Source: Collinsella sp. zg1085
GTDB lineage: Bacteria; Actinomycetota; Coriobacteriia; Coriobacteriales; Coriobacteriaceae
DNA length: 64,000 nt
NCBI RefSeq assembly: GCF_018889955.1
Contig: NZ_CP076545.1
Span: 124,001-188,000, forward strand
Direction of reading: 5' to 3'
The notes under the pieces were generated by a model. That model saw only the letters and a list, made by a program, of their open reading frames with translations, searched no databases and was not told where the DNA came from. Position numbers and translations under genes: made by a program. Below are positions 3,109-61,107 of this stretch, piece after piece (positions within the stretch are counted from its first letter, which is position 1; the number at the start of each line of letters is the position of its first letter).

Positions 3109-3150
3109 CTTATGCCAAAACATGGTAGATGACCTCGTGTTATCAACCCT

Positions 3151-3312
3151 ACACACTCAACACCAAAAAACATCTATCCTGAACACTCAACAAGCCAAAA
3201 CATCTATCTCGCACACTCAACACCGTGAAAACATCAATCCTAAACACTCAAGAGAGAAAAACATCCATCGTAAACACTCAACATGTCAAAACATCTATCC
3301 TGCACACTCGAG
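3151..3312. repeat. Six-unit 30-bp tandem repeat (iteron-like array)
   Basis: The word CACTCAA (CACTCGA in the last unit) recurs at 3154, 3184, 3214, 3245, 3275 and 3305, so the period is 30 bp (once 31). Each unit is CACTCAA, four to six variable bases, then AAAACATCTATCC-like sequence. Units abut without spacers. The array lies between the recombinase operon and the att copy at 3429. A 76-codon frame runs through it (3122-3352), but it is low-complexity and lacks a convincing ribosome site, so it is treated as DNA repeat. Role unknown; recombinase accessory sites, iterons or element-end binding sites are possible. Confidence 0.85.
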
Positions 3313-5929: not shown

Positions 5930-7603
5930 AGAGACAGGCTTTAGGAGGGGCTGTGTTTTTCGAGAGTTTTTGGGAACATATGCGTCACAAAACTGCTCGC
6001 TTCTCAATTCAGATGAGACCAAGGTATTGCCTTCCCTGAATGTGCTGCGCAAAATTCTCCGAACGCAACACCTTGGTTTTACGTCTGCCTTTCGTGTTTA
6101 AACAAACTGCATTTCAATAAAGCTGTGTCCCGCGAACACTTCCCTGAAAAAGCAACTTGTTTTTCTCTTGTGCGGACAGATTTCAAAACACCGCCAACTT
6201 GAATGAGCTGTTTTGACAGAAACGGGCAATGTGGCAGTAAAACCTGACAGAAACAGGCAATGTGGCAATAAACCCCCTGTAGTACAAAAAACTGCACTTC
6301 ATCTACCTGCAGGTTTATAAAACAATGAATAACCCACGGGGTTCTACACTACCAAATTGCCCGTTTCTGTCAAAAGAGGTTTGGCTAATGCCACTGTCTT
6401 CCTGTGAGTTGGCAAAAAAGACTAATTTGACGCAAAAATCTGTCATTTTTGACCAATTTGGCATAAAGAGACAGTTGTTGCTTTACGCGTAGCTCTTCTA
6501 CCTGCGGCTTTGTATGACAAATACTAACCCGCTGGGTTATAGAGAGTACTTTTTTGTCATTTTTGCCAAAGCGACAGGTGTAACTTATTGATGTAATGGT
6601 GGTAGTAGTTTGTGTTTAGTGCATTAGCTGTACTACTGCGTAACGTGCCGTAATGAATTGCAGTGTTAGAAATACCTTGTAATAGCTTTACGAAATTGCG
6701 AAAACTCAGGGCTACTGGGAAGCAAAACGCTCTAGTGTACGAATTTTTGCTAGTAGCCCGAGTATAGGGGGTCTGTACAAAGAAACTTTTCAGCATTTCC
6801 GCAGGAAGGATGCTTTAGCTTAGTAGAGTGTACTTGACCCTAGTCAAGAAAATCGTACATTAGATGGATTTCCTCTTGGGGCGTTGATGTAATGCAGCTC
6901 ATATCACTTATTAGCTAAAAAAACACTGCAACAGAGGTAGTTTGAGCAGTCAGACCAAGGTATTGCGTTCGGAGAATTCTGCGTAGCACATTCGTAGAAC
7001 GCAATACCTTGTCTCGTGCACTAACTCTGTAAAAGCTAAGCTCACGGGCAGGCAAAAGCTTAACGGTAGAAAAGAGCTTCAACCCAATCCCATTTCATCC
7101 CATAAGCGCTGCTTGTGCATGGCGGGGTGTGGGAGTGAGCTGATTGCTGTTTGTACATTTGGTATTTACTGTAAGAAAGGGGACGAATGATTGTGCTCGG
7201 AGAATTCTGCGTAGCACATTCGGAGAGCGCAATCATTCGTTCAGTTGAGGTGGAGCTACAGTACAAAGCAGGTGAGATAGAGCTACAACATAAGGGTGGC
7301 ATAGCTTTTCTAAGGGAACTTTCGCGAAGCGCAGTTCCCGTGAAAAGACTATGCCACCCCATAGGTTTACGACTCATTCATCACATAGACGAGGTGAAAG
7401 ACTATGCCACCTCGTAAGCTTGCAATTCATTCGCCCAGCTTAGACGACATGAAAAGTCTCTACCATTCCATACGCTTGCGACTCATTCGTCCAACTTAGA
7501 CGGTGTGAAAAGCCTCTGCCATCAACGATGCTAAGAGCGAAACAAAGCCACCAACCACAGCTCACCCCACACCCCGCCTTCAGGAAGCAAGCAGCCGCTT
7601 ATA
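5930..7603. repeat. Long non-coding palindromic element, copy A (left arm missing)
   Basis: Core with hairpins H3 at 6019-6076 and 6955-7012, then a right arm with H2 at 7183-7240, H1 at 7294-7359, and the outer repeat (AGCTCACCCCACACCCCGCC) ending at about 7603. H1 is GGGTGGCATAG...CTATGCCACCC; H2 is ACGAATGATTG...CAATCATTCGT; H3 is CCAAGGTATTG...CAATACCTTGG. The core also holds TAACCCGCTGGGTTA, ACCTGCAGGT, CTTGACCCTAGTCAAG and repeated TGACAGAAACGGGCAA motifs in both orientations. 5996-6898 reads identical to 36845-37747 of copy B; left of 5996 the two remain alignable but diverge, and the H2/H1 left arm is absent. The right end overlaps the TAA of pepT. No credible gene inside; small frames here are explained by the repeats. 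Confidence 0.9.
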
Positions 7604-8843
7604 CCTCGCTGAAGCGCTTTACGAGCTCTACCAGCATATCGACCATCTTTTCCAAAGACTCAACGGGGATAAACTCATGCACGCCATGCATGCAATATCC
7701 ACCGGTTGAAATGTTCGGACACGGCAGCCCTCTAAAACTAAGCTGCGCGCCATCGGTGCCACCACGAATAGGAAGTACGCGCGGCTCAATATCAATAGCC
7801 CTAAATGCCTCTTCGGCGCGGCTTATCAACTCAGGGCGCACACTCACGACCTCAGCCATGTTACGGTACTGCTGCTTTATTTCAACATGTACACGCTTAG
7901 TATCTGAGCCGGCATTGATAAACTCTGCTGCGCGGTTAATCAGGTCAATTTTTGCCGCAAACGCATCTGCACTATGGTCGCGAATGATATAGCGCGCTGT
8001 GGCGTGGCTCGCTGTTCCCGAAACTCCTTCGAGGTGAATAAACCCTTCGTACCCTTCGGTAGTTTCTGCACGCTGTGCTGGCGGAAGCAAGGCATGGAAA
8101 TCCGTAAACATGTTGAGCGCGTGAATCATGCGCCCTTTTGCATCGCCGGTATGAATTGAGCGCCCCTCAAAGCTGACGGTTGCTTCCGCCGCATTAAAGC
8201 ACTCCCATTCAAGCACGCCGATAGGTCCGCCATCTACGGTATAGGCATAGTCACAAGCAAAACGTTCAATATCAAGCAGCTCAGCGCCGTGTCCTATCTC
8301 CTCGTCTGGGCAAAAGCAGATGCCCAGCGGTGGATGCGGCAATTCAGGGTGCTGAGACAGGCGAGCAACCAAAGACATTATCTCTGCAACGCCAGCCTTA
8401 TCATCTGCACCCAAAAGTGTTGTACCATCGGTGCAAACAAGGTCTTTGCCAACCAGCTTATGCAGCTCAGGCAAGGTGTCATCAGATAGCGCAACAGGCA
8501 CCCCATTGACCTCACCACAAACTAAGTCCCCACCGGTATAGTGCACGATATGCGGCTTTACACCTTCGCCCAGCGCCTGCTCGGTGGTATCTATATGCGC
8601 AATAAGCCCCAAACGTGGCAGATGCTCAGCTCCAGGGCTTGCCGGAATATGAGCGGTAACGTAGGCATGTTCGCTCACCTCAACCTGCTCAGCGCCCAAT
8701 GACCGCAGCTCATCTGTCAGCATATGGGCGAGGTCAAACTGACATGCGGTCGATGGAACCTGATAAGAATGTTCATCGGATGAAGTTGTAAAAACCTGGA
8801 CATAGCGCAAAAAGCGCTTAAGTACATCGGATGAATTACTCAT
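7599..8843 (-). CDS. pepT: Peptidase T (tripeptide aminopeptidase)
   Basis: 414 residues, the usual PepT length. M20-family dizinc metallopeptidase that releases the N-terminal residue from tripeptides in the cytosol. Visible: zinc-binding AHIDT, LGADDKAG, catalytic/bridging PDEEIGHG, VDGG, and the C-terminal RGGTDGAQLSFRGLPCPN block with the final HGVHEF. AAGGAG six bases before the ATG sets the start. Transcribed divergently from the regulator at 8974 across 130 bp. Its TAA stop lies inside the outer repeat of element A, so the element reaches exactly to the coding end. A role in peptide nutrition of an asaccharolytic or weakly saccharolytic anaerobe is inference. Confidence 0.95.
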   Translation of the reverse strand: MSNSSDVLKRFLRYVQVFTTSSDEHSYQVPSTACQFDLAHMLTDELRSLGAEQVEVSEHAYVTAHIPASPGAEHLPRLGLIAHIDTTEQALGEGVKPHIVHYTGGDLVCGEVNGVPVALSDDTLPELHKLVGKDLVCTDGTTLLGADDKAGVAEIMSLVARLSQHPELPHPPLGICFCPDEEIGHGAELLDIERFACDYAYTVDGGPIGVLEWECFNAAEATVSFEGRSIHTGDAKGRMIHALNMFTDFHALLPPAQRAETTEGYEGFIHLEGVSGTASHATARYIIRDHSADAFAAKIDLINRAAEFINAGSDTKRVHVEIKQQYRNMAEVVSVRPELISRAEEAFRAIDIEPRVLPIRGGTDGAQLSFRGLPCPNISTGGYCMHGVHEFIPVESLEKMVDMLVELVKRFSEV

Positions 8844-11304: not shown

Positions 11305-12813
<1,509 letters not shown>

Positions 12814-13158
12814 CTAGGGAGATACTTCTTCTAGGAAGAACATAATTTGATTTGATGGCGCGGAGGTAATAGTCGTTCCGGCTCTATCTGTTAAACAGTC
12901 TTTATCGCAGCATCCGGTTCCTGAGGGATACCTTCAGTGTACCTTGAGAGCCGCATAGCGAAATACGTATGAGTCAAATTTGACTCAGACACAATTCTTC
13001 TTAATGGAGATATAAGAGATACATCCAATCTGCAATAGATTTTATGTAAGAAGCATCTAATACGATCGCAAGAAGATAGATTATCTTCTCATCGTGGTAT
13101 GCGACACCCAAGAGTTTACAATTACTCATGAATATACATGTTAGCATCTCGCTTCTAA
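12814..13158 (+). other. 16S-23S spacer without tRNA genes
   Basis: 345 bp. Holds the 3' arm of the pre-16S stem (12898-12932) and the 5' arm of the pre-23S stem (12938-12973, pairs with 16224-16262). No tRNA-Ile or tRNA-Ala can be folded from it: there is no T-loop (GGTTCGANTCC) motif. Confidence 0.85.
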
Positions 13159-16147
<2,989 letters not shown>

Positions 16148-16223
16148 TTAGACGAGATGCATATACACATGTACTCGGTGTCGCTAAGAACTTCTTCTCT
16201 TATGGTCTTGGTCTAAATCACAC

Positions 16224-16262
16224 CTCATACGTATAAAATCGCTGTGTGGCCCTCAGGGTACA
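16224..16262 (+). other. 3' arm of the pre-23S processing stem
   Basis: CTCATACGTA...TCGCTGTGTGGC...GGTACA is nearly the reverse complement of 12938-12973. The pair closes the 23S precursor for RNase III and lies in the 23S-5S spacer. Confidence 0.7.
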
Positions 16263-16295
16263 TATATCTCTCAAGGTGGGTGAGTGTCGCCCACC

Positions 16296-16412
16296 GGTCA
16301 GCGGCTATGGCGGGCGGGGTACGCCCGGTCCCATTCCGAACCCGGAAGCTAAGCCGCCGAGCGCCGATGGTACTGCGGAGTAAGTCCGTGGGAGAGCAGG
16401 GCGCCGCTGACC
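16296..16412 (+). rRNA. rrf: 5S ribosomal RNA
   Basis: About 117 nt. GGTCAGCGGCTATGGCGGGC at the 5' end pairs with GCCGCTGACC at the 3' end; the loop CCCATTCCGAACCCGGAAGC is the conserved 5S core. Third gene of the 16S-23S-5S operon. Confidence 0.95.
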
Positions 16413-35280: not shown

Positions 35281-36339
35281 ATGTCGCTTGAGCCCATCAA
35301 TGAACTCACTCGTACTCCGCTTTTTAATCCTGACGGGGACACCGAGGTGCGCGATCGCCGCATGATTGGTGGAAATACCACCAATTTGAACGACTTTAAC
35401 AACTTGAAGTATCCTTGGGTATCTGATTGGTATCGCCAGGCCATGAATAACTTTTGGATTCCGGAAGAGATAAATCTGTCGCAAGACGTCAAAGACTATC
35501 CCAACCTTACCGAGGATGAGCGTATGGCCTACGATAAAATTTTATCGTTTTTGGTCTTTTTAGATTCGCTTCAGTCAGCAAATTTGCCTAATGTTGCAGA
35601 ATACATCACTGCAAACGAGGTCAACTTGTGCTTGCATATTCAGACTTTCCAGGAATGCGTACATTCCCAGAGCTATAGCTATATGTTGGACACCATTTGC
35701 AGCCCTGAGAAACGTAACGAAATTTTGTATCAATGGAAAGACGACGAGCATTTGCTGCGCCGTAACACCTTTATTGGTGAGCAGTACAACGAGTTCATGA
35801 GCAAAAAAGACGTGCGAACATTGCTCAAGGTAATGATGGCGAATTTTATTCTTGAAGGCGTTTATTTCTATTCGGGCTTTATGTTCTTCTATAACTTGGC
35901 GCGTAATGGAAAAATGCCAGGGTCAGCTCAGGAAATTCGCTATATTAACCGCGACGAGAATACGCATTTGTGGTTGTTCCGCAGTATTATTCTTGAGCTG
36001 CAGCGCGAGGAGCCGCAGCTTTTTGACGACGAGATAGTGAATGAGCTGCGTGAAATGTTGATTGAGGGCGTGCGTCAGGAGATTGAGTGGGGACACTATG
36101 TCATTGATGGACGCATTGCAGGATTAACCCGTGAAATGGTATCGGATTATATCCACTATCTAGGCAATTTGCGCTGGCATTCGCTTGGCTTTGGCACGCT
36201 GTTTGAGGGCTTCGAGCGCGAGCCGGAGAACATGGCGTGGGTGAGCCAGTATTCTAATGCGAATATGGTAAAGACGGACTTCTTTGAGGCACGGTCTACG
36301 GCATATGCAAAGTCAACAGCGTTAGTTGACGACCTATAA
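35281..36339 (+). CDS. nrdB: Class I ribonucleotide reductase, small (beta) subunit
   Basis: 352 residues, ATG behind GAGAGAGGACGAAT. Ferritin-like four-helix protein that generates the radical for NrdA. The metal ligands line up as Asp95 (FLDSLQS), Glu125 and His128 (QECVHS), Glu192 (ILEGVYF), Glu226 and His229 (RDENTHL); the radical-site Tyr132 is present (HSQSYSYM), so this is a tyrosyl-radical type and not a Phe-substituted one. Separated from nrdA by the GH123 gene and therefore needs its own promoter. Its stop codon lies 3-4 bp before repeat element B. Confidence 0.96.
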   Translation: MSLEPINELTRTPLFNPDGDTEVRDRRMIGGNTTNLNDFNNLKYPWVSDWYRQAMNNFWIPEEINLSQDVKDYPNLTEDERMAYDKILSFLVFLDSLQSANLPNVAEYITANEVNLCLHIQTFQECVHSQSYSYMLDTICSPEKRNEILYQWKDDEHLLRRNTFIGEQYNEFMSKKDVRTLLKVMMANFILEGVYFYSGFMFFYNLARNGKMPGSAQEIRYINRDENTHLWLFRSIILELQREEPQLFDDEIVNELREMLIEGVRQEIEWGHYVIDGRIAGLTREMVSDYIHYLGNLRWHSLGFGTLFEGFEREPENMAWVSQYSNANMVKTDFFEARSTAYAKSTALVDDL

Positions 36340-36342
36340 GGA

Positions 36343-38421
36343 TATACGCTGCTGTTTGTTTCTCGGAGGCGGGGTGTGGGGTGAGCTAGCTCCGTGATTG
36401 CCGTCCTAACTTCACCTTTTGTTCAGCAAGTGGCATAGGCTTTTCGCATCGTCAGTTGGGCGAATGAATTGCACGTCTCTGGGGTGGCATAGTCTTTTCA
36501 CGGGAACTGCGCTACGCGAAAGTTCCCTTAGAAAAGCTATGCCACCCCTAAGTGGAAGTTCTATCTCACCTGCTTTGTACAGTAGCTCCATCTCAACGGG
36601 ACGAATGATTGTGCTCTCCGAATGTGCTTCGCAAAATTCTCCGAACACAATCATTCGTCCATTTCTTTAAAGCAAATGCCAAACACACATACGGCACTCA
36701 GCTCGCCCCACACCTCGCCATGCACAAGCAGCGCGTATAGGATGAAAGGGGTTGAGTTGCAACTCCTGCGCAACCAGAGAGAAATCCCGCTTCAAGGGCT
36801 TTTCTACTCGAAAGTCTGCCTAAAACATTTGTTCAGTAAAACTTCTCGCTTCTCAATTCAGATGAGACCAAGGTATTGCCTTCCCTGAATGTGCTGCGCA
36901 AAATTCTCCGAACGCAACACCTTGGTTTTACGTCTGCCTTTCGTGTTTAAACAAACTGCATTTCAATAAAGCTGTGTCCCGCGAACACTTCCCTGAAAAA
37001 GCAACTTGTTTTTCTCTTGTGCGGACAGATTTCAAAACACCGCCAACTTGAATGAGCTGTTTTGACAGAAACGGGCAATGTGGCAGTAAAACCTGACAGA
37101 AACAGGCAATGTGGCAATAAACCCCCTGTAGTACAAAAAACTGCACTTCATCTACCTGCAGGTTTATAAAACAATGAATAACCCACGGGGTTCTACACTA
37201 CCAAATTGCCCGTTTCTGTCAAAAGAGGTTTGGCTAATGCCACTGTCTTCCTGTGAGTTGGCAAAAAAGACTAATTTGACGCAAAAATCTGTCATTTTTG
37301 ACCAATTTGGCATAAAGAGACAGTTGTTGCTTTACGCGTAGCTCTTCTACCTGCGGCTTTGTATGACAAATACTAACCCGCTGGGTTATAGAGAGTACTT
37401 TTTTGTCATTTTTGCCAAAGCGACAGGTGTAACTTATTGATGTAATGGTGGTAGTAGTTTGTGTTTAGTGCATTAGCTGTACTACTGCGTAACGTGCCGT
37501 AATGAATTGCAGTGTTAGAAATACCTTGTAATAGCTTTACGAAATTGCGAAAACTCAGGGCTACTGGGAAGCAAAACGCTCTAGTGTACGAATTTTTGCT
37601 AGTAGCCCGAGTATAGGGGGTCTGTACAAAGAAACTTTTCAGCATTTCCGCAGGAAGGATGCTTTAGCTTAGTAGAGTGTACTTGACCCTAGTCAAGAAA
37701 ATCGTACATTAGATGGATTTCCTCTTGGGGCGTTGATGTAATGCAGCGCATATCACTTATTAGCTAAAAGAAAACACTGCAACAGAGGTAGTTTGAGTGG
37801 GCAGACCAAGGTATTGCATTCGGAGAATTCTGCGTAGCACATTCGTAGAACGCAATACCTTGTCTGTACTGTTAACCAAGTGGGAGTGAGGCTCACGGGC
37901 AAGTAGGGATTTAACGGTAGAAAAGAGCTTAAACCCAAACCCATTTCATCTCATATGCCCTGCTTGTGCATGGCGGGGTGTGAGGTGAGTTGAGTGTCGT
38001 TGTGCATTTGGCATTTACTGTATGAAAGGGACGAATGATTGTGTGCGAAGAATTCTGCGTAGCACATTCGGAGAACACAATCATTCATCCGGTTGATATG
38101 AGGTGATAAGTAATCAACGGAGAGGGAGAATTAGTTCGTAGAACAGGTGAGATAGAACTACAACATAAGGGTGGCATAGCTTTTCTAAGGGAACTTTCGC
38201 GAAGCGCAGTTCCCGTGAAAAGACTATGCCACCCCATAGGTTTACGACTCATTCTCCCAACTGGTGAGATGAAAGACCTACGTCACACAGCAAGCCTGCG
38301 AACCATTCGTTAAACTGTCGAAGCGAAAAGCCTCTGCCATCAACGATGCCAAGAGCGAAATCAAATCCGCAACCACAGCTCACCCCACGCCCCGCCTACA
38401 GGAAGCGAGTAGCCGCTTATC
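36343..38421. repeat. Long non-coding palindromic element, copy B (complete)
   Basis: About 2.08 kb between nrdB and the EF-G-like gene. Left arm: outer repeat (GGCGGGGTGTGGGGTGAGCT near 36372), H1 36482-36547, H2 36601-36658, inner outer-type repeat with CCACACCTCGCCATGCACAA near 36705, H3 36868-36925. Core to H3 37806-37862. Right arm, inverted: inner repeat near 37965, H2 38031-38088, H1 38169-38234, outer repeat ending at about 38421. 36845-37747 reads identical to 5996-6898. No protein-coding signature; a 72-codon and a 79-codon frame shared with copy A follow simply from that identity. The left end starts 3-4 bp after the nrdB stop. Confidence 0.92.
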
Positions 38422-38566
38422 TACCCTTTACCGTAAAGTCCGCTACGTTGGGCGAAAAATCGATGCTACTTAGCTTGACTAGGGCTAGTCTGTATACATT
38501 GATATACCGACTGCTTTGAGTCAGTGACAGAATATCTGGCTTCAAGCAAGAAGGAGGTTGGTGGCC

Positions 38567-40633
38567 ATGGGTGCTCCCAAAACTGGTAATGTAAGGAACG
38601 TGGTGCTGGTAGGCCAAGGTGGGGTGGGCAAGACGTCGCTCGCTGAGGCAATGCTTCACCTGTCAGGTAAAACCGCTCGTTTGGGCGGGCATGACGGTAC
38701 TAAGCCCACCCTTGATTACGATGCCGAAGAAGTTAAGCGGTCGTTCTCTATTTCAACTGCAATTGCTCCTATCGATTGGCGCGGCGCACGTATCAATGTG
38801 CTTGATGCTCCTTGCTATCCCGATTTTATCGGCGACGCTTACGCCGCTATGAGCGTGGTTGAGGCTGCAATTTTTGTTGTTGACGCAGCTGCTGGTCCGC
38901 AGTCTACCACCGTTAAACTTTGGTATGCGGCAGAGGACTTGCGCATGGCGCGCTCGGTGTTCATTAACCGCATTGATCGTCCGGACGCAGATTATGCAAG
39001 TTGCCTTGACCAGCTAAAAGAGCGCTTTGGTATGCGTCTGGGTGCTGTAACCTTGCCACTAGGGGTGGGCGAGGATTTTGACGGCATCATTGACGTTGTT
39101 CGTATGAAGGCGCGCCGCTGTAAAGGCACTCAGCAAAGTGAATTTGACATCCCTGAACAGTATCTTGCCGAAGCAGAAGCTGCGCACGAGACGCTTACCG
39201 AGCTTGTTGCAGAAGCCGATGATGAGCTGATGGAAAAGTACCTCGAAGGTGAGACGCTCACAGTCGAAGAAATTGAAGGCCTCATGGGCAAGGCCATTGC
39301 TAAGCGTCTTTTTGTCCCAGTCTTTGTAGGAAGCTGCGTTCAAGAGCAGGGTGTCAACTCGCTCATGGACGACATCGCTGCCTACTTCCCAGCACCGACC
39401 GATTACGGTGAGATGCCGCTTATCGATGGTGACAAGTTGAAGATTTCGTCTGAGGACGACCGCCCGGTGGTTTTTGTCTTTAAGACACTCAACGATCCAG
39501 CGCAAGGTCGCCTTTCCTTTATCAAGGTTATTACGGGTACCATCGAACCAGGTATGGAGCTTATCAACGCGCGTACCCGCAAGTCCGAGCGCCTGGCACA
39601 TCTCAACGTTATGTGCGGTCGCGAGATGACTGAGGTGGGGCACGCTTATGCGGGGGACATCGTGGTTGTTGCCAAGATGAGCGCTGAGACCGGTGACACC
39701 CTGTCGGTTTCTGGCAAAGTTGAAGCAGCGGCATTTGCTTTCCCCAATTCGCAATATCGCATTGCTATAGAAGCCGAAAACCGCAGTGATGAGGAGAAAC
39801 TCTATACCTTTATTGACAAAGCCTGCCAAGCAGACCCAACCATGCATATCGAGCGTGATGAAGAGACTGGTCAAACTATCATTTCTGCAGTCGGCGAGGC
39901 TCAGGTGAGCGTTCTGCTCAACCGGCTTGAAGACCGCACTAAGGTAGAAGCCCATATTGTGCCGCTGCGCATACCATATCGTGAGACCATTCGTCGCGTT
40001 GCAAGTGCTCAGGGTCGTCATAAGAAGCAAACCGGTGGCGCAGGCCAGTTTGGCGATTGCTATCTACGTGTTGAACCGCTGCTCGATGGCACTGTGTATG
40101 AATTTGTTGATGAGGTTGTGGGTGGACGGATTCCACGTGCACTTATTCCCGCGGTTGACCGAGGCGTTCAAGAAACCATGAAGGAAGGCATTATTGCAGG
40201 TTACCCGCTTACGGGTATCCGTGTTGCGTGCTACGACGGTTCGTATCACCCGGTAGATTCTAATGAAATGGCGTTTCGCTCTGCAGCACGTCTTGCGCTT
40301 AAGAAAGCTTGCGCTGAGGCCGACCCTGTAATTCTTGAGCCTATGCGCAGCATCACAGTGACCATTCCGGAGAGCTATGCTGGTGCTGTTATGGGTGATG
40401 TGAGCGCGTCGCGTGGTCGCGTAACCGGTATGGAAACTAATGAACGCGGCGATACAGTAGTGTCTGCGGTAGTGCCTTATGCAGAATTGACCGATTATGC
40501 AACGCGCTTGCGGTCGCTTACGCGCGGCAATGGTGACTTTAGTATGGAGCCAGCTGGATACGAGCAGGTTCCCTACGATGTGCAAAAGCATCTCGTTGAG
40601 TTTTATGAGGAGAGCCGCACGCAGGGAAGATAA
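38567..40633 (+). CDS. EF-G-like GTPase (EF-G2 type)
   Basis: 688 residues from the ATG at 38567, nine bases after AAGGAGG; TTG and GTG codons at 38558 and 38561 are too close to it. Translational GTPase with the five EF-G domains: G1 GQGGVGKTSL, G3 DAPCYPDF, G4 INRID, then domain II, and domain IV/V (GGAGQFGDCYLRVEP, DVSASRGRVTGME). G1 is not the GHVDAGKT of true EF-G, and the invariant Gly of DxxG is Cys here (DAPC), so GTP-dependent switching may be altered. Similar EF-G-like paralogues in actinobacteria do not replace EF-G in translocation; their role is unsettled. Not next to rpsL/rpsG/tuf, which also speaks against canonical fusA. Confidence 0.88.
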   Translation: MGAPKTGNVRNVVLVGQGGVGKTSLAEAMLHLSGKTARLGGHDGTKPTLDYDAEEVKRSFSISTAIAPIDWRGARINVLDAPCYPDFIGDAYAAMSVVEAAIFVVDAAAGPQSTTVKLWYAAEDLRMARSVFINRIDRPDADYASCLDQLKERFGMRLGAVTLPLGVGEDFDGIIDVVRMKARRCKGTQQSEFDIPEQYLAEAEAAHETLTELVAEADDELMEKYLEGETLTVEEIEGLMGKAIAKRLFVPVFVGSCVQEQGVNSLMDDIAAYFPAPTDYGEMPLIDGDKLKISSEDDRPVVFVFKTLNDPAQGRLSFIKVITGTIEPGMELINARTRKSERLAHLNVMCGREMTEVGHAYAGDIVVVAKMSAETGDTLSVSGKVEAAAFAFPNSQYRIAIEAENRSDEEKLYTFIDKACQADPTMHIERDEETGQTIISAVGEAQVSVLLNRLEDRTKVEAHIVPLRIPYRETIRRVASAQGRHKKQTGGAGQFGDCYLRVEPLLDGTVYEFVDEVVGGRIPRALIPAVDRGVQETMKEGIIAGYPLTGIRVACYDGSYHPVDSNEMAFRSAARLALKKACAEADPVILEPMRSITVTIPESYAGAVMGDVSASRGRVTGMETNERGDTVVSAVVPYAELTDYATRLRSLTRGNGDFSMEPAGYEQVPYDVQKHLVEFYEESRTQGR

Positions 40634-42779: not shown

Positions 42780-42786
42780 GACGGGG

Positions 42787-45020
42787 TATACGCCGGTGCT
42801 TGCTTCCTGGAGGCGAGGTGTGGGGTGAGCTGGCCTTGCGTCACCCATTTGGTTTGCAAACTTGTTGGGTGGCATGGTTTTTCACGTCATCTAAGCTGGG
42901 CGAACGATTTGCAGGCTTGTTGAGCGGCAGAGGTTTTCACCTCGTCAGTTGGGCGATTGGTTTGCACGTCTATGGGGTGGCATAGTTTTTTCACGGGAAC
43001 TGCGCTTCGCGAAAGTTCCCTTAGAAAAGCTATGCCACCCTTATGCTGCATCTCTATCTCACCCGCTTTGTTCGGTAGCTCCATCTCAATCAAACGAATG
43101 ATTGTGCTCTCCGAATGTGCTACGCAGAATTCTCCGAACACAATCATTCGTCCTTTTAATACGATAAAGACCTAAAACCTTACAGCATGCGGCAATCTCC
43201 ACACCCCGCCATGTACAAGCAGCGCATATGGGTTGAAAAGGGGTTGAGTTGTAGCTCTTACGGGACAAAAGCGAGATGCCCACTTCAAAAGGATAGTGCT
43301 ACTCGATAATCTACCTAGAAACGTAAGCTCCGCAAAGCTCATTCGTTTCTTAACTCAGGTAAGACCAAGGTATTGCATTTTACGAATGTGCTTCGCAGAA
43401 TTCTCCGAACGCAATACCTTGGTCTTTCACCTATTTACCGTGCTTTCCAAATTTCAAATCAAGAATAGAGTAGTTCGCGAACACTTTCCCTAGAAATACA
43501 GCACGTTTCTCATATGTGCGGACAGATTCCAAAACACCGCCAACTTGGTTGAGCGGTTTTGACAGAAACGGGCAATTTGGCAGTAAAACCTGACAAAAAT
43601 GAGCAATATGGCAATAAACCCCCTGTAGTATGAAAAACTGCAAGTTATCTACCTGCAGGTTTACAAAACAACAAATAACCCACGGGGGTTCTACACTGCC
43701 AAATTGCCCATTTCTGTCAAAAGAGGCTGGGCTAGCATTGCCACCAACGGAAATCAGATTAGGAAACAAAACTTGAAATCCTGCGAAAACAATTAAATCT
43801 AGCGGTCAAACAAAACCTCTGAACTGCGCTTTGGCAAAAGTGACTAATTTGACGCAAAATTCTGTCATTTTTGACCAATTTGGCATAAAGAGACAATTGT
43901 TAACTTACTCTCAGCTTATCTACCTGCGGCTTTGTAGGATAAATACTAACCCGCTGGGTTATAGAGAGTACTTTTTCGTCAGTTTTGCCAAAGCGACAGA
44001 TGTAACTTATCTATGTGACAAGAGCCTTAGCACCCGATACGGCATAATTGTGCTGCTATTGCGTTTTGCGAAGCAATTCCGGTATGTTAACCCAACGTGT
44101 AACGATGCATTGTTGGCTTGTCTCGGCAATATCTTGACGTAATGGGAACTCGCAGGGATTTATGGAGCAAACAATGCTCCTATGAAATTGCGAAAACTCT
44201 GAGGTTCTGGAAGTTAATCAATCTAGTGTACGAATTTTTGCCAGCAGCTTGAGTATGGGGGGTCTGTACAAGCAAATATTTTAGTATTTCCGCAGGAAAG
44301 ACGCTTTACTTTAGTGGAGTGTACTTAACCATAGTCAAGATGATCGTACATTAGATGGGTTTCCTCTTGGGGCGTTAATGTGAAAGACCTATTCTACATA
44401 TTAGTCGACGAAAAACAGTGCAGCAGAAGCAATGACGAGCAATGAGACAAGGTATTGCATTCGGGGAATTCTGCGCAGCACATTCATAGAATGCAATACC
44501 TTGCCCGTAGTGCTAACTAGGTGAGTGTAAAGCTTACAGGCAGGTAAGAACTTAACGGTAGAAAAGAGCTCCAGTCCAAACCTTTTTATCCCATATGCCC
44601 TGCTTGTGCATGGCGGGGTGTGGAGTGAGCTGACCGCTGTTGTGCATTTGGTATTTACCGTAAGAAAGGGGACGAATGATTGTGCAGCACATTCTTAGAG
44701 CATAATCATTCGTCCAGTTGAGATAGGGTTGTAGTACAAAGCAGGTGAGATAGAGCTGCAGCATAAGGGTGGCATAGCTTTTCTAAGGGAACTTTCGCGA
44801 AGCGCAGTTCCCGTGAAAAGACTATGCCACCCCATAGGCGTGCAAACCAATCGCCCAACTGACGAAGTAAAAGCCTCTGCCGCTCAACAAGCTTGCAAAT
44901 CATTCGTCTAACTTAGATGACGTGAAAAGCCTCTGCCATCAACGAAATCAAGGACGAAACAAAGACAGCAACAACAGCTCATCCCACACCCCGCCTCTAG
45001 GAAACAAGCAGCCGCGTATA
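42787..45020. repeat. Long non-coding palindromic element, copy C (complete, diverged)
   Basis: About 2.23 kb. Left arm: outer repeat (GAGGTGTGGGGTGAGCT near 42813), H1 42975-43040, H2 43094-43151, H3 43365-43422. Core 43423-44447 keeps the same order of motifs as copies A and B (TGACAGAAACGGGCAA pair, ACCTGCAGGT, ATAACCCACGGG, TAACCCGCTGGGTTA, CGCAGGAAAGACGCTTTA) but with many substitutions and about 100 extra bases near 43730-43830. Right arm: H3 44448-44503, H2 44672-44713 (shortened to 42 bp, middle deleted but tips kept), H1 44767-44832, outer repeat to about 45020. No credible gene. Confidence 0.9.
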
Positions 45021-45223
45021 TCATCATAGTTTCTCTAAAATTCACGCCCCTTCACCGATTTTTATCCCCGCTTGCCGGAATAAAGCGAATGTGTCTATAA
45101 AATTATGCGTTGCATGAGAGAATTTAAGTAACATTTGCACAATTTTTTGTTGTGCACAATTGAACCTGAGTGGCTCTGGAAACTGGGTAGCTCTGAGTTG
45201 AATGGTGGAGGTGGTAGCGACTT

Positions 45224-50674: not shown

Positions 50675-51265
50675 ATGAAACAGGTTCGCACTGGTCTCGC
50701 TACCATGCTTGGAACTCTTGCAGCGGCGCCGCTTGCTGCTTATGCAGAGGAGTCTTCAGCTGGTGCAGAGATTTTGATTCCAAAACCCGCTGAGTTTATT
50801 CCGGCTCTTATTGTCTTTTTGATTATTTGGTTCCTGTTAGCCAAGTTTGCTTGGCCCAAGGTTCTTCATATGCTTGAAGAGCGCGAGCGCACCATCCAAG
50901 AAAGCATGGATGAAGCAGAGGAGATTAAAGCTCAGGCTGGCACTGCGCGCGATGAGGCCAACCAAACGGTAGCCGATGCACGTCGTCAGGCATCTGAGAT
51001 TTTGCTTGCCGCTCGCTCTGACAGCGAGAAGGAACGTGCACGTATTGTGGCTGATGCTCACAAAGAGGCTGAGGAGATTATTATCAAGGCTCGTGAGTAT
51101 GCCGCCGATGAACAGCGTCGTATCTATGCTAATGCAACGGATACTATTGCTAAGCTTTCGGTATCGGTTGCCCGCAAGGTTATAGGCGAAGAGTTAAGCG
51201 CTGATACCGAGAAGCAGCGTGAGCTCATCAAGAAATATGTTGCGGAAGTGGGTAACTTACAATGA
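50675..51265 (+). CDS. atpF: F-type ATP synthase subunit b
   Basis: 196 residues, ATG behind TTAGGGAGGAACC. The N-terminus resembles a signal peptide (MKQVRTGLATMLGTLAAAPLAAYA), then the true membrane anchor FIPALIVFLIIWFLLAKFAW at about 44-63, then a long heptad coiled coil (Ala/Glu/Arg-rich) forming the peripheral stalk. The extra N-terminal hydrophobic segment may be cleaved; similar extensions occur in other actinobacterial b subunits. The stop overlaps atpH by 4 bp. Confidence 0.94.
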   Translation: MKQVRTGLATMLGTLAAAPLAAYAEESSAGAEILIPKPAEFIPALIVFLIIWFLLAKFAWPKVLHMLEERERTIQESMDEAEEIKAQAGTARDEANQTVADARRQASEILLAARSDSEKERARIVADAHKEAEEIIIKAREYAADEQRRIYANATDTIAKLSVSVARKVIGEELSADTEKQRELIKKYVAEVGNLQ

Positions 51266-52008
51266 CAGATGAGAAGCCCTCAATGAGCGAGGAAAAGCGC
51301 AAGCTTGAATGCTACGCGCGCACCTTGCTTGAAGCCGCTAAAAGTGAAGACCGGGTGCTTGAAAACCTGGCATCGCTTTCGGCAGAAGCAGAAGCTTCGC
51401 CTGAGGTGTTATCGGTCCTGTCCACTATGGCAGCAAGTAACGACCTCGACAAACTTCCGGTCGTTCTTGATTTGTATCGCGAGATGATGTCAGGTGAGGA
51501 TCAGTTTGTCAGCGACCGCAAGTTGCCTAAATCGCTACAGCCAAAAAGTCGCGTAGAGCAGCGTCGTCTTGAGATTTATGCTCGTACATTGCTTGAGGCC
51601 GCTCAAAATGAGGATCGCGTCTACCAAGATTTAGCGCCCTTGCGAGCTGAGGCAGATGCGTCGCCTGAGGTTATGCAGGTGCTTTCTTCCATGGCAGTAG
51701 GTGGCGACCTCGATAAGTTGCCTGCGGTGCTCTCAATGTATCGCGAGATGGTTGCACGCGACCGAGATGTTGTAGGCGTACACGTGACCACGGCTATTCC
51801 ACTTGATGACGAGCTTCGTGATTTTATTAAACGCAAATGTGAGGCAGACCTTGAGTCGCGCGTCTTTTTGATTGAACACGTCGATGCCACCATCATTGGC
51901 GGCGTTATTTTGTCAGTCAATGGACACCGCCGCGATGCGTCAATTCGCATGCAGCTAGAAAGCGTGCGCAAGGTGCTGACTCAAACAAATTCGAATTCGG
52001 AGGTTTAA
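51262..52008 (+). CDS. atpH: F-type ATP synthase subunit delta with internal duplication
   Basis: 248 residues against about 180 for the family. The N-terminal unit is present twice: residues 18-76 ([15 protein letters not shown]...LYREMM) and 106-163 ([15 protein letters not shown]...MYREMV), 88 residues apart and about two-thirds identical. The single C-terminal region ([26 protein letters not shown]) carries the family's conserved parts. Delta clamps the top of F1 (alpha N-termini) to subunit b. The duplication lies in the domain that contacts alpha. No frameshift is seen. Overlaps atpF (ATGA) and is followed 5 bp later by atpA. Confidence 0.92.
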
Positions 52009-57759: not shown

Positions 57760-58920
57760 ATGGCAAGAAAACCCATTCAGCAAATGCGTTATGCAAGTGG
57801 AGCTGCAAGTCGTATTTATAGCCGCGAAAATGTTGAGCGGTATTCACAGCGTGCGCGTGAGCGTCGCCGCGGACGAGTTATGCGGCGTGTAATTACTACT
57901 ACCATTGTGTTGCTTTTTGTTTTGGGCGGCAGCGCGCTGGCACTCAATATTGCAAAGAGCATCATTAACGGCTCACTGCATGGTGATGCAGGTTATCTCA
58001 ATGGTCTGGTGGGTGTTCTTACCGATAATAATGCGGCAAAGGATCCATTTAATATTTTGTTGCTAGGCACCGATGGACGACCAGGAGAGGATACGTTTAG
58101 GTCGGATTCTATTATTCTGGCGCATGTCGATCCAGTTAAGAAAACCGCTGCTCTCATCTCAATTCCGCGCGATACTAAGGTTGAATATAAGGGCAGCACA
58201 ATGAAGATTAACGAGACGCATGCTTATGGCGGTCCTGAGGCTGTCGTTACTGCGGTTAAAGATTTGTGCGGTGTTGATATTTCCTATTACGCTGAAGTGA
58301 GTTTCACGGGTATGGTGAACTTGGTTGATGCAGTTGGGGGCATAGATTTAACCATTCCTGAAGGTGACGCCGTGGACGACCCAGATGCAGGTGATGTGCC
58401 GGTTCCTTCGGGAGATCAGCATCTTAACGGTGAGATGGCGTTGGTCTTTAGCCGCGCGCGTCATCAGTTTGGCGATGGCGACTATACACGCATGCGTCAC
58501 CAGCGTATGGTTTTAGGTGCACTAGCAAAGAAGATTCTTAATAATCTTGATTTGACACAGGTACCGGCATTGCTGGATTCACTGAAAGAAATGCTGGTCA
58601 CCACCATGAATGTAGATGACATCATTGGCGTTATGACAGCAATGCGCGGTATGGATACCAATAATATTTGGTCGGCTAATCTTCCAAGTCACGCCGGTTC
58701 AGATACCATGATTAACGGAAAGAGCTATGTCTTTGTATATGAAGAAGAGCTCAAAGAAATGATGGCACTTGTTGAGGCTGGTGAAGATCCCAAAGGCCCC
58801 AATAGCTCTGGGCGCAAGGGTCAGTCAACAACACTGGGCGATCTTGCAACTAACAGCAGCGACGATTGGACAAATGGAGCTGCTGTTACCGCGGGCGGCG
58901 GGCATTCCGAAACCGAGTGA
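57760..58920 (+). CDS. LytR-CpsA-Psr (LCP) family wall-polymer transferase
   Basis: 386 residues, starts 11 bp after murA. Basic cytosolic N-terminus (about 1-40), one membrane helix about 42-63 (VITTTIVLLFVLGGSALAL), then an external LCP domain: ILLLGTDGR, RSDSIILAHVDP, ISIPRDTKV, VDAVGGIDLTIP, FSRARHQFGDGDYTRMRHQR. LCP enzymes move teichoic-acid-like or capsular polymers from a lipid carrier to peptidoglycan or proteins. The Arg and Asp residues that bind pyrophosphate are present. The C-terminal 60 residues are Ser/Gly-rich and disordered. The TGA stop shares its final base with the start of element D. Confidence 0.94.
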   Translation: MARKPIQQMRYASGAASRIYSRENVERYSQRARERRRGRVMRRVITTTIVLLFVLGGSALALNIAKSIINGSLHGDAGYLNGLVGVLTDNNAAKDPFNILLLGTDGRPGEDTFRSDSIILAHVDPVKKTAALISIPRDTKVEYKGSTMKINETHAYGGPEAVVTAVKDLCGVDISYYAEVSFTGMVNLVDAVGGIDLTIPEGDAVDDPDAGDVPVPSGDQHLNGEMALVFSRARHQFGDGDYTRMRHQRMVLGALAKKILNNLDLTQVPALLDSLKEMLVTTMNVDDIIGVMTAMRGMDTNNIWSANLPSHAGSDTMINGKSYVFVYEEELKEMMALVEAGEDPKGPNSSGRKGQSTTLGDLATNSSDDWTNGAAVTAGGGHSETE

Positions 58921-61102
58921 TACGCCGTTGCTTGCTTCCTAGAGGCAGGGTGTGGGGCGAGCTGTTGTTGCGGATTTGATTTCGCTCTTAGTATCGTTGA
59001 TGGCAGAGGCTTTTCATGTCGTCTAAGCTGGACGAACGAATTGCAAGCTTACGGGGTGGCATAGTCTTTTCACGGGAACTGCGCTTCGCGAAAGTTCCCT
59101 TAGAAAAGCTATGCCACCCTTATGCTGCATCTCTATCTCACCTGTTCTACGAGCTAATTCTCCCTCTCAGTTGATTGCTTATCACCTCATATCAACTGAA
59201 CGAATGATTGTGCTCTCCGAATGTGCTTCGCAGAATTCTTCGAGCACAATCATTCGTCCTCTTCTTACAGTAAATGCCAAATGCATATACAGCACTCAGC
59301 TCACCCCACACCCCGCCATACACAAGCAGCGCATATGGGATAAAAAGGTTTGGGTTGAAGCTCTCTTTTACCGTTAAGCTTTTACCTGCCCGTGAGCCTC
59401 ACTCCCGCTTGGTTAGCAGTACGGACAAGGTATTGCATTCTTCGAATGCAATACCTTGGTCTGCCTACTCAAACTGCCTCTGTTGCAGTGCTTCCTTTTA
59501 GCTAATAAGTGATATATACGCTGTATTACATTAACGCTCAAGGAGGAAACGGGCCTAGTGTACGATTTTTTGCAAGAGGTTAAGTATACTTTGCTAGAGT
59601 AAAGCGTCTTTCCTGCGGAAACGCTGAAAAGTTCGCTTGTACAGACCCCCTATACTTGGACCACAGGGAATAATTCGTACACTAGAGCGATTTGCTTCCA
59701 GAAACCCTGAGTTTTCGCAATTTTGTAAAGCTATTACAAGGTATTCCAACACTGCAATTCATTACGGCACGTTACGCAGCAGTACAGCTAATGCACTAAA
59801 CACAAACTACCACCACCATCACATCGATAAGTTACACCTGTCGTTTTGGCAAAAATGACGAATTTGTACTCTCTATAACCCAGCGGGTTAGTATTTGTCC
59901 TACAAAACCGCAGGTAGATGAGCTGCGAGTAAGTTGACAGCTGTCTCTTTACGCCAAATTCGTCAAAAATGACAGGTTATTGCGTCAAATTAGTCATTTT
60001 TGCCAAAGCATAGGTCAGAGGTGTTATTTGACCACTAGATTTGATTGTTTTCGCCAGATTTCAAGTTTTGTTTGCTAATCTGATTTCCGCTGGTGGCAAT
60101 ACCAGCCCAACGCTTTTTGACAGAAATGGGCAATTTGGTAGTGTAGAACCCCCGTGGGTTATTCGTTATTTTATGAACCTGCAGGTAGATGAAGTATATC
60201 CTTTCCTGCTTTAGGGGGTTTATTGCCAGATTGCCCCTTTTTGTCAGTTTTTACTGCCAAATTGCCCGTTTCTGTCAAAATTGCTCAGCCAAGTTGTCGT
60301 CGTTTTGAAATCTATCTGTACATATGAGAAACGCGCTACTTTTTCAGAAAAAGTGTTTGCGAACTACTCTTTTCTTGATTTGAGTTTTTGGAAAGAACGA
60401 TAAGTAGGTGAATGACCAAGGTATTGCGTTCGGAGAATTCTGCCAAGCATATTCGTAGAATGCAATACCTTGGTCTATTTCAAGTTGAGAAACGAGAAGT
60501 TTTGCGGAGTACACGTTTCGAGGAAGTCTTTCGAGTGAAAAAGCCCTTGAAGCGGGATTTCTCTCTGGTTGCGCAGGAGTTGCAACTAAACCCTTTTCAT
60601 CCTATACGCACTGCTTGTGCATGGCGGAGTGTGGAGTGAGCTGAGTGTCGTATAGGTAATGGGTCGTTACTGTAAAAATAGGACGAATGATTGTGCTCGG
60701 AGAATTTTGCGAAGCACATTCGGAGAGCGCAATCATTCGTTCAGCTGATATGAGGTGATAAGCAAACTACAGAGGGAGAATTAGCTCGTAAAGCAAGTGA
60801 GACAGAGCTACAACATAAGGGTGGCATAGCTTTTCTAAGGGAACTTTCGCGTAGCGCAGTTCCCGTTAAAAGACTATGCCACCCTATACGTTTACGACTC
60901 ATTCATCACATAGACGAGGTGAAAACTATGCCACCCCATACACTTGCAATTCATTCTCCCAGCTTAGACGACGCAAAAAGCCTACGTCACTCAGCAAGCT
61001 TACGAGCTATTCGTCCAGTTGGCAAAGTGAAGCGACATGAAGCAAAATCAGAGCTGCAACCACACCCCACACCCCGCCTCCGGGAAACGAGCAGCTGCTT
61101 AT
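58920..61102. repeat. Long non-coding palindromic element, copy D (complete, core inverted)
   Basis: About 2.18 kb. Left arm: outer repeat (TACGCCGTTGCTTGCTTCCT then GGGTGTGGGGCGAGCT), H1 59054-59119, H2 59200-59257, H3 59426-59458 (only 33 bp: the middle is missing, the stem is perfect). Core to 60415 is the reverse complement of cores A-C (TAACCCAGCGGGTTA near 59877, CGCAAAACTC-type motif inverted). Right arm: H3 60416-60473, H2 60683-60740, H1 60819-60884, outer repeat ending about 61102, six bases before the TAA of the leftward nox gene. So it fills exactly the space between two convergent coding ends. No credible gene. Confidence 0.9.
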
Positions 61103-61107
61103 TCCGC

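Follow-up and report, generated by a model that had tools for sequence, protein, structure and literature searches.

Palindromic intergenic repeats of Collinsella sp. zg1085 carry predicted hairpins of a family found across the Coriobacteriales

Palindromic repeats of about 2 kb, dispersed between the genes of Collinsella sp. zg1085, carry in each arm three predicted hairpins, H1, H2 and H3, which by sequence and covariance models form one family spread through the order Coriobacteriales. We judge it an even call whether the composite is a dispersed intergenic element made of these 3'-end RNA hairpins, acting bidirectionally and spread non-autonomously. The hairpins stand behind genes and always point in the same direction; this hints at a mechanism peculiar to the lineage by which transcripts are finished or protected.

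The window, that is the whole stretch of 64,000 nucleotides analyzed here, was compared with itself. The four originally predicted repeat blocks were recovered at 5988-7608, 36334-38421, 42782-45029 and 58914-61105 and take up, as proposed, one eighth of the window (~8.1 kb of 64 kb). The inverted arms of copy B (36343-38421) are present and 77-88% complementary. A single architecture had been described for all four copies, with arms of outer repeat, H1, H2, inner repeat and H3 mirrored around a core; copies B, C and D have both ends, while copy A is missing the whole left arm (Table 1). Searching copy B against its own genome, a single closed contig of 1,720,218 bp (1.72 Mb), gave 183 matches with E-values down to 0, which excludes chance. 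Reading about 30 stretches around these matches together with the window grouped them into 23 loci that contain pieces of arm or core, besides core modules standing alone, distributed genome-wide. Both outer ends are found in four copies (e160, e167, e183 and e1115, at 160.3, 166.8, 182.9 and 1115.1 kb), and the rest are truncated or partial copies or solo arms, one of which lies at 67647-68050.

Table 1. Positions of the repeat copies and of the parts of copy B in the window
Feature	Position	Strand	Remarks
Copy A, truncated	5989-7603	+	no left arm
Copy C, both ends	42786-45020	+	left end 7 nt after stop codon
Copy D, both ends	58918-61103	-	between two convergent genes
Outer repeat (OR), left arm	36343-36390	+	TATACGC..GGCGGGGTGTGGGGTGAGCT
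Hairpin H1, left, class I	36482-36547	+	model R1, E=2.7e-9
Hairpin H2, left, class II	36597-36662	+	model R3
Inner repeat (IR), left arm	36700-36738	-	OR inverted, closes arm
Hairpin H3, left, class II	36864-36929	+	model R3
Core module M1	37060-37224	.	~165 bp, inverted ends, internal 31-nt direct repeat; also solo
Core module M2	37258-37438	.	~180 bp, inverted ends; also solo
Core module M3	37538-37723	.	~185 bp
Hairpin H3, right, inward-facing	37802-37866	-	model R3
Inner repeat, right arm	37952-37992	+	OR inverted
Hairpin H2, right, inward-facing	38027-38092	-	model R3
Hairpin H1, right, inward-facing	38169-38234	-	model R1, E=5.6e-10
Outer repeat, right arm	38377-38421	-	137 nt before next ORF (38558-40633 +)

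Copies A and B share an identical core run of 903 bp, yet their right arms have clearly diverged. Left and right arms are equally similar within and between positions, with mean identities of 77.0, 77.5 and 77.2%. Since an identical core lies beside diverged right arms and the arms are interchangeable, copies appear to exchange sequence. The view that no known gene lies inside was borne out, as nine ORFs tested within composites yielded no Pfam family. Nor does the element match a described RNA family at or above the Rfam gathering score; in the window Rfam recognizes rRNA and tRNA only, and miRNA matches far below gathering are noise. Between copies A and B the window also holds a complete 16S-23S-5S rRNA operon (11305-16412); elsewhere it has a 174-bp direct repeat (51313-51486 and 51577-51750) inside the ORF region 51262-52008, and a short local repeat cluster near 3.1-3.5 kb (3142-3312) that is unrelated to the composites.

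The arms have a simple plan. Each runs from the OR (TATACGC..GTGAGCT; sequence TATACGCnGCTGCTTGTTTCCTGGAGGCGGGGTGTGGGGTGAGCT) through H1 and H2 to an inverted copy of the OR, so that the predicted inner repeat exists but is the outer repeat inverted and not a separate unit. With up to three mismatches, the 20-nt core of the OR matches 15 times forward and 15 times in reverse genome-wide, against 0 matches for the reversed control. OR and IR are inverted copies, yet they differ consistently in the middle (UUUCCUGGA versus AUGC). As a candidate for a selected RNA stem the OR/IR pair folds well (cofold -74.6 kcal/mol), but in this genome its paired fraction is 88.4% compared with 88.6% in shuffles, and double changes are likewise not above shuffles. 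With covariation at shuffle level, the OR/IR pairing, which would close each arm into a single RNA domain, is not supported as a selected stem.

H1, H2 and H3 point inward in both arms. Mean identity across arms is 97.9% for H1 and 89.3% for H2, compared with 63-69% for the spacers; judged by these identities, the hairpins seem to be held within the arms while the remainder drifts. The class I hairpin H1 has the internal loop AC/UUA and the tip GCGCUWCGCGAA. H2, of class II, has the loop UCC/UCC, a type also seen in Olsenella hairpins, and the tip GUGCUWCGCARA, and the loop of H3 is UAC/UCC in most copies but variable in the left H3 of copy B. Between OR and H1, for example at 7360-7560 in the right arm of copy A and also at locus L046, there is a variable number of ~77-nt units repeating the 5' half of H1 (GGTGGCATAG.CTTTTCAC..), which could compete for pairing with its 3' half.

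The lead to a wider family was a weak match in another Coriobacteriales genus, which proved to be a hairpin whose stem is completely different from that of H1 but whose internal loop and tip are the same. Family members have a long stem that is specific to each site, whereas their internal loop (AC/UUA or UNC/UCC) and their tip (YGC-UNC-GCR) are conserved. H1, H2 and H3 have these features, and covariance models cross-detect hairpins between genera. Model R1, built from seven Olsenella-type sequences and no local one, detects H1 in the composites with E-values of about 1e-9 to 1e-10. Similarly, model R3, built only from local H2 and H3, detects hairpins in six further genomes (G083, G175, G094, G202, G002 and G025), other genera included, as well as the local H1 in the same orientation. 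Scanning the order with R1 matched 64 of 397 Coriobacteriales genomes. Two Olsenella-type genomes gave 14 and 23 matches at E 1e-3, some of which are one hairpin scored on both strands. The tip pattern occurs in 78 stretches among ~85,000 named species, nearly all of them from Olsenella, Thermophilibacter, other Atopobiaceae or Collinsella-type members of the Coriobacteriia; the outlier, one record labelled Bacillota, is without the stem. Both loop classes, AC/UUA as in H1 and UNC/UCC as in H2 and H3, are present in Olsenella. No Rfam family describes these hairpins, and we found no description of them or of the composite in the limited open-access literature searched. The exact H1 pattern gave no hit in GTDB genomes with this genome left out. 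A viral origin was considered and dropped: the exact H1 and M1-end patterns gave 0 matches in IMG/VR.

The stems themselves are informative. Among hairpins selected by their tip, 51 of 61 have a perfect 14-bp outer stem (mean 13.6 of 14 pairs), whereas combining strands of different hairpins yields 9.7 of 14 pairs on average; mean identity among the 5' strands is only 60%. At the level of predicted pairing, this shows stems maintained by compensation. In relatives the hairpins are kept as single copies of ~65-95 nt, with compensated stems, at orthologous sites. In Olsenella-type genomes (L117, L142, L158, L162 and similar) many single hairpins seem to be enclosed by a further outer stem that starts near the stop codon (e.g. 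UAG-GCGAGAAGAACGUCC...GGACGGGUUCUCUU). G-U strand bias, considered as evidence for the transcribed strand, was not decisive, pointing one way for H1 and M3 and the other way for H2, H3 and M1.

Position relative to genes was evaluated in two overlapping sets. In the first, of 28 foreign loci, the upstream gene lies on the hairpin strand in 27, 16-42 nt away. The larger set places it there at 56 of 57 loci, with the hairpin starting 8-41 nt after its stop codon in 54; these counts include orthologous sites, so that not all are independent and the events are fewer than the numbers. Downstream genes in the larger set are on the opposite strand in 31 cases and on the same strand in 22. Gene starts and stops were assigned by simple codon scoring, with a GC-position filter in the training of the gene caller for the larger set; the first set used a different gene caller and agrees with the larger. 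In Collinsella sp. zg1085 itself, one family hairpin that is not part of a composite follows a tRNA-Ser gene at a distance of 29 nt, where there is no stop codon. Strand-specific position behind both protein and tRNA genes points to the transcript rather than to a DNA palindrome. At about 276972-277465 of the genome (L321:2473-2966), where a class I hairpin follows tRNA-Ser(TGA), the 3' end of the tRNA and this hairpin recur 308 bp further along, an arrangement resembling an att remnant left behind by an integrated element that has since been lost.

Among the roles listed in the original prediction, structured RNA is the best supported, given that hairpins in relatives lie in sense shortly behind stop codons and have compensated stems. 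Because the arm hairpins face inward, transcripts entering the composite from either side meet H1, H2 and H3 in sense, a short way past the stop codon of their own gene. The hairpins would act on RNA as end-forming, end-protecting or insulating structures, and a host factor, either RNase III or a dedicated RNA-binding protein, would recognize internal loop and tip; we infer termination, or mRNA protection or processing, through such a factor. A U-tract was not found after 59 Olsenella-type hairpins, where T makes up 0.27-0.46 at positions 1-8, and a terminator scan returned terminator-like sites at shuffle or background level. As there is no U-tract behind the hairpins, Rho-assisted termination is possible. 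In evolutionary terms, a 3'-end RNA module would have been duplicated in mirror image, serving transcripts from both sides, and would have spread as a non-autonomous repeat that arrives flush with gene boundaries and whose copies later exchange sequence. The composite would have taken over the end role at roughly two dozen gene ends, the relatives having ordinary terminators there. More tentatively, and in our opinion with less than even prospects, the Coriobacteriales may own a dedicated, U-tract-free hairpin system for transcript 3' ends, sited a little way behind stop codons and tRNAs and read by some factor through internal loop and tip. In this species the signal would have been built into a bidirectional element of 2 kb, brought with precision to stop codons, where it takes the place of the native intergenic regions and terminators.

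The ends of the element fit closely to genes. Thirteen intact outer ends are placed within -4 to +7 nt of the stop codon of a gene that reads into the element, and at two convergent gene pairs this holds on both sides. The left OR of copy B begins 3 nt past the end of the gene upstream, ORF 35281-36339, counted from its stop codon; we take this gene to be nrdB. The right end of copy A overlaps such a stop codon (-4 nt), and copy D fills the whole space between its convergent neighbors (-2 and +5 nt from their stop codons). Six flush genes were compared with those of congeners, presumably nrdB, yebC and genes for a DUF47-like protein, an ABC permease, an NADH-oxidase-like protein and a membrane protein, as read from their sequences. 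All six align to the last residue in at least one congener, and their stop codons therefore appear natural; the end of a seventh gene, left of copy C, differs by a few residues from its congeners. In the congeners, these gene ends are mostly followed by terminator-type hairpins, and the R1 model found no match there. Looking for empty sites in congeners, as suggested in the original prediction, showed that gene order there is mostly not conserved. The exception is the gene pair around e1115, which is convergent without the element in one congener (G022), the spacer between the matching genes carrying a bidirectional terminator-type hairpin. The gene to the right of this copy (1117327-1118589) is ~40-100 residues shorter than the frames of relatives, its clear orthologues having 460-517 aa, and judging from this length difference the 1115-kb copy may have cut its C-terminal tail. 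Antisense placement does occur: several Olsenella pairs, and composites separating co-directional genes, have their far hairpins on the strand opposite to the nearby gene, an arrangement that a symmetric DNA element would fit as well.

Such a DNA reading has its clearest form in a giant REPIN or BIME, whose hairpins would be single-stranded DNA substrates of a RAYT-like Y1 transposase, with mobile inward doublets and the enzyme since lost here; we consider this rather unlikely. The element is closest in kind to REP/BIME mosaics and 3'-UTR hairpins, and the original placement beyond MITEs, REP/BIME and Correia repeats stands for its size and stop-codon anchoring but not for its arrangement, which resembles REPIN/BIME mosaics. 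Like REP, REPIN and BIME sequences, it comprises extragenic hairpins that are mismatched at the center and frequently lie 3' of genes, in inward doublets and larger mosaics. REP doublets are inverted, and REPINs have an inward geometry (PMC3116915). This geometry is matched by the inverted neighboring hairpin pairs of relatives, inward-facing in 7 of 7 cases in Olsenella, and by the inward triplets in both arms of every two-armed composite. Olsenella inward pairs with one antisense member keep the DNA reading alive. The antisense strand (UAAG..GCGAAGCGC), with GNA at the center of its loop, is similar to listed REP cores such as TAAGCGaaGCGC (PMC2817692). However, Y1_Tnp (PF01797) has no match in the genome of Collinsella sp. 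zg1085, although control genomes gave matches. Unlike GTAG/CGTC REPs, the 59 Olsenella-type hairpins are flanked on neither side by a conserved tetranucleotide within 30 nt, and none is fixed beside H1 in 19 arms. Single hairpins are also longer than the 20-40 nt of REPs, their stems vary by site in relatives rather than being copied, and they are strictly sense-oriented at a short distance behind stop codons. The composite differs again in being a 2-kb unit of six hairpins and three unrelated modules. Because neither the tetranucleotide tag nor, in this genome, the transposase was found and the size differs, we do not assign the hairpins to the REP family.

A non-autonomous mobile element had been another proposed role. 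The repeats are indeed dispersed over the 23 loci and species-specific, but target duplications, Y1 transposase and reverse transcriptase (PF00078, 0 matches in this genome) were not found, and no mobiliser was identified of which the element could be a satellite, as had also been suggested. In a composite transposon the arms would be MITEs bounded by OR, the core modules further MITEs, and a transposase acting on OR would have moved the whole. Like MITEs and composite transposons, the element is non-coding and dispersed and has inverted ends and solo units: each arm is bounded by OR and IR as inverted copies that differ in their middle, one arm is present by itself, M1 and M2 with their inverted ends are also met singly, and left and right arms are interchangeable in sequence. 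We nevertheless hold this origin to be quite improbable. None of the four two-ended copies (e160, e167, e183 and e1115) has a target-site duplication, OR and IR are consistently different, unlike equal transposon ends, and flush ends on both sides of two convergent pairs are not predicted by simple insertion. It would also leave the conserved, order-wide sense hairpins unexplained.

Decaying nested repeats with no present function, brought up to stop codons by the loss of intergenic DNA in a shrinking genome, would account for the many truncated copies and for a genome of 1.72 Mb where many congeners have ~2.2 Mb. This is very unlikely, considering that hairpins are conserved far above spacers, that intact ends lie within a few nucleotides of gene boundaries while the element persists, and that relatives keep single hairpins with compensated stems at orthologous sites. 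A chromosome-organizing or nucleoid-protein binding site would fit the dispersed, palindromic and intergenic character of the element, which BIMEs can have too, but such a role is barely credible here, as single hairpins keep strictly to the sense orientation behind genes and behind a tRNA, and this is not expected of a DNA site.

For the 3'-end RNA module, comparison with intrinsic (Rho-independent) terminators is useful. Both are GC-rich sense hairpins shortly behind a stop codon or tRNA, and congeners mostly carry terminator-type hairpins at the orthologous gene ends, but the hairpins described here have no U-tract, and their internal loop and tip are conserved, although an ordinary terminator requires neither. 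Integron attC sites also form imperfect, variable hairpins with conserved internal features, directly behind stop codons and in fixed orientation. In contrast to these, the hairpins lie behind core chromosomal genes (nrdB, purL, yebC) with no cassette array.

If the 3'-end RNA reading is correct, an entire order of gut bacteria gains a conserved, uncatalogued RNA hairpin family, and one has to ask which factor reads the hairpins. It would also account for those 3' gene ends of Olsenella, Thermophilibacter and their relatives that show no U-tract terminator. A repeat that abuts the stop codons of convergent genes exactly, and on both sides, is a rare case. Whether REP-like repeats work as RNA or DNA becomes directly testable here, where orientation, distance and compensation can be measured.

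The reading as 3'-end hairpins leaves the core unexplained. The predicted core of about 1 kb is present; it is not featureless but contains three modules of ~165-190 bp, M1, M2 and M3, in fixed order and orientation relative to the arms (H3, M1, M2, M3 and the second, inverted H3). M1 and M2 also occur solo in intergenic DNA, and M2 is distantly related to M1 (75% over 48 nt). Among 397 Coriobacteriales genomes, the M1 profile R2 scored convincingly in Collinsella sp. zg1085 only and in none of the other 396, with one marginal match in another genome (8.8e-4). Within window positions 37060-37438, M1 and M2 have the motif ATCTACCTGC.G.TTT..TA..ACAA....TAACCC.C.GGGTT in common and, on the minus strand, a small AACCC..GGGTT hairpin with a T-rich stretch after it. 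Motif and hairpin together may possibly form an RNA or regulatory element of their own.
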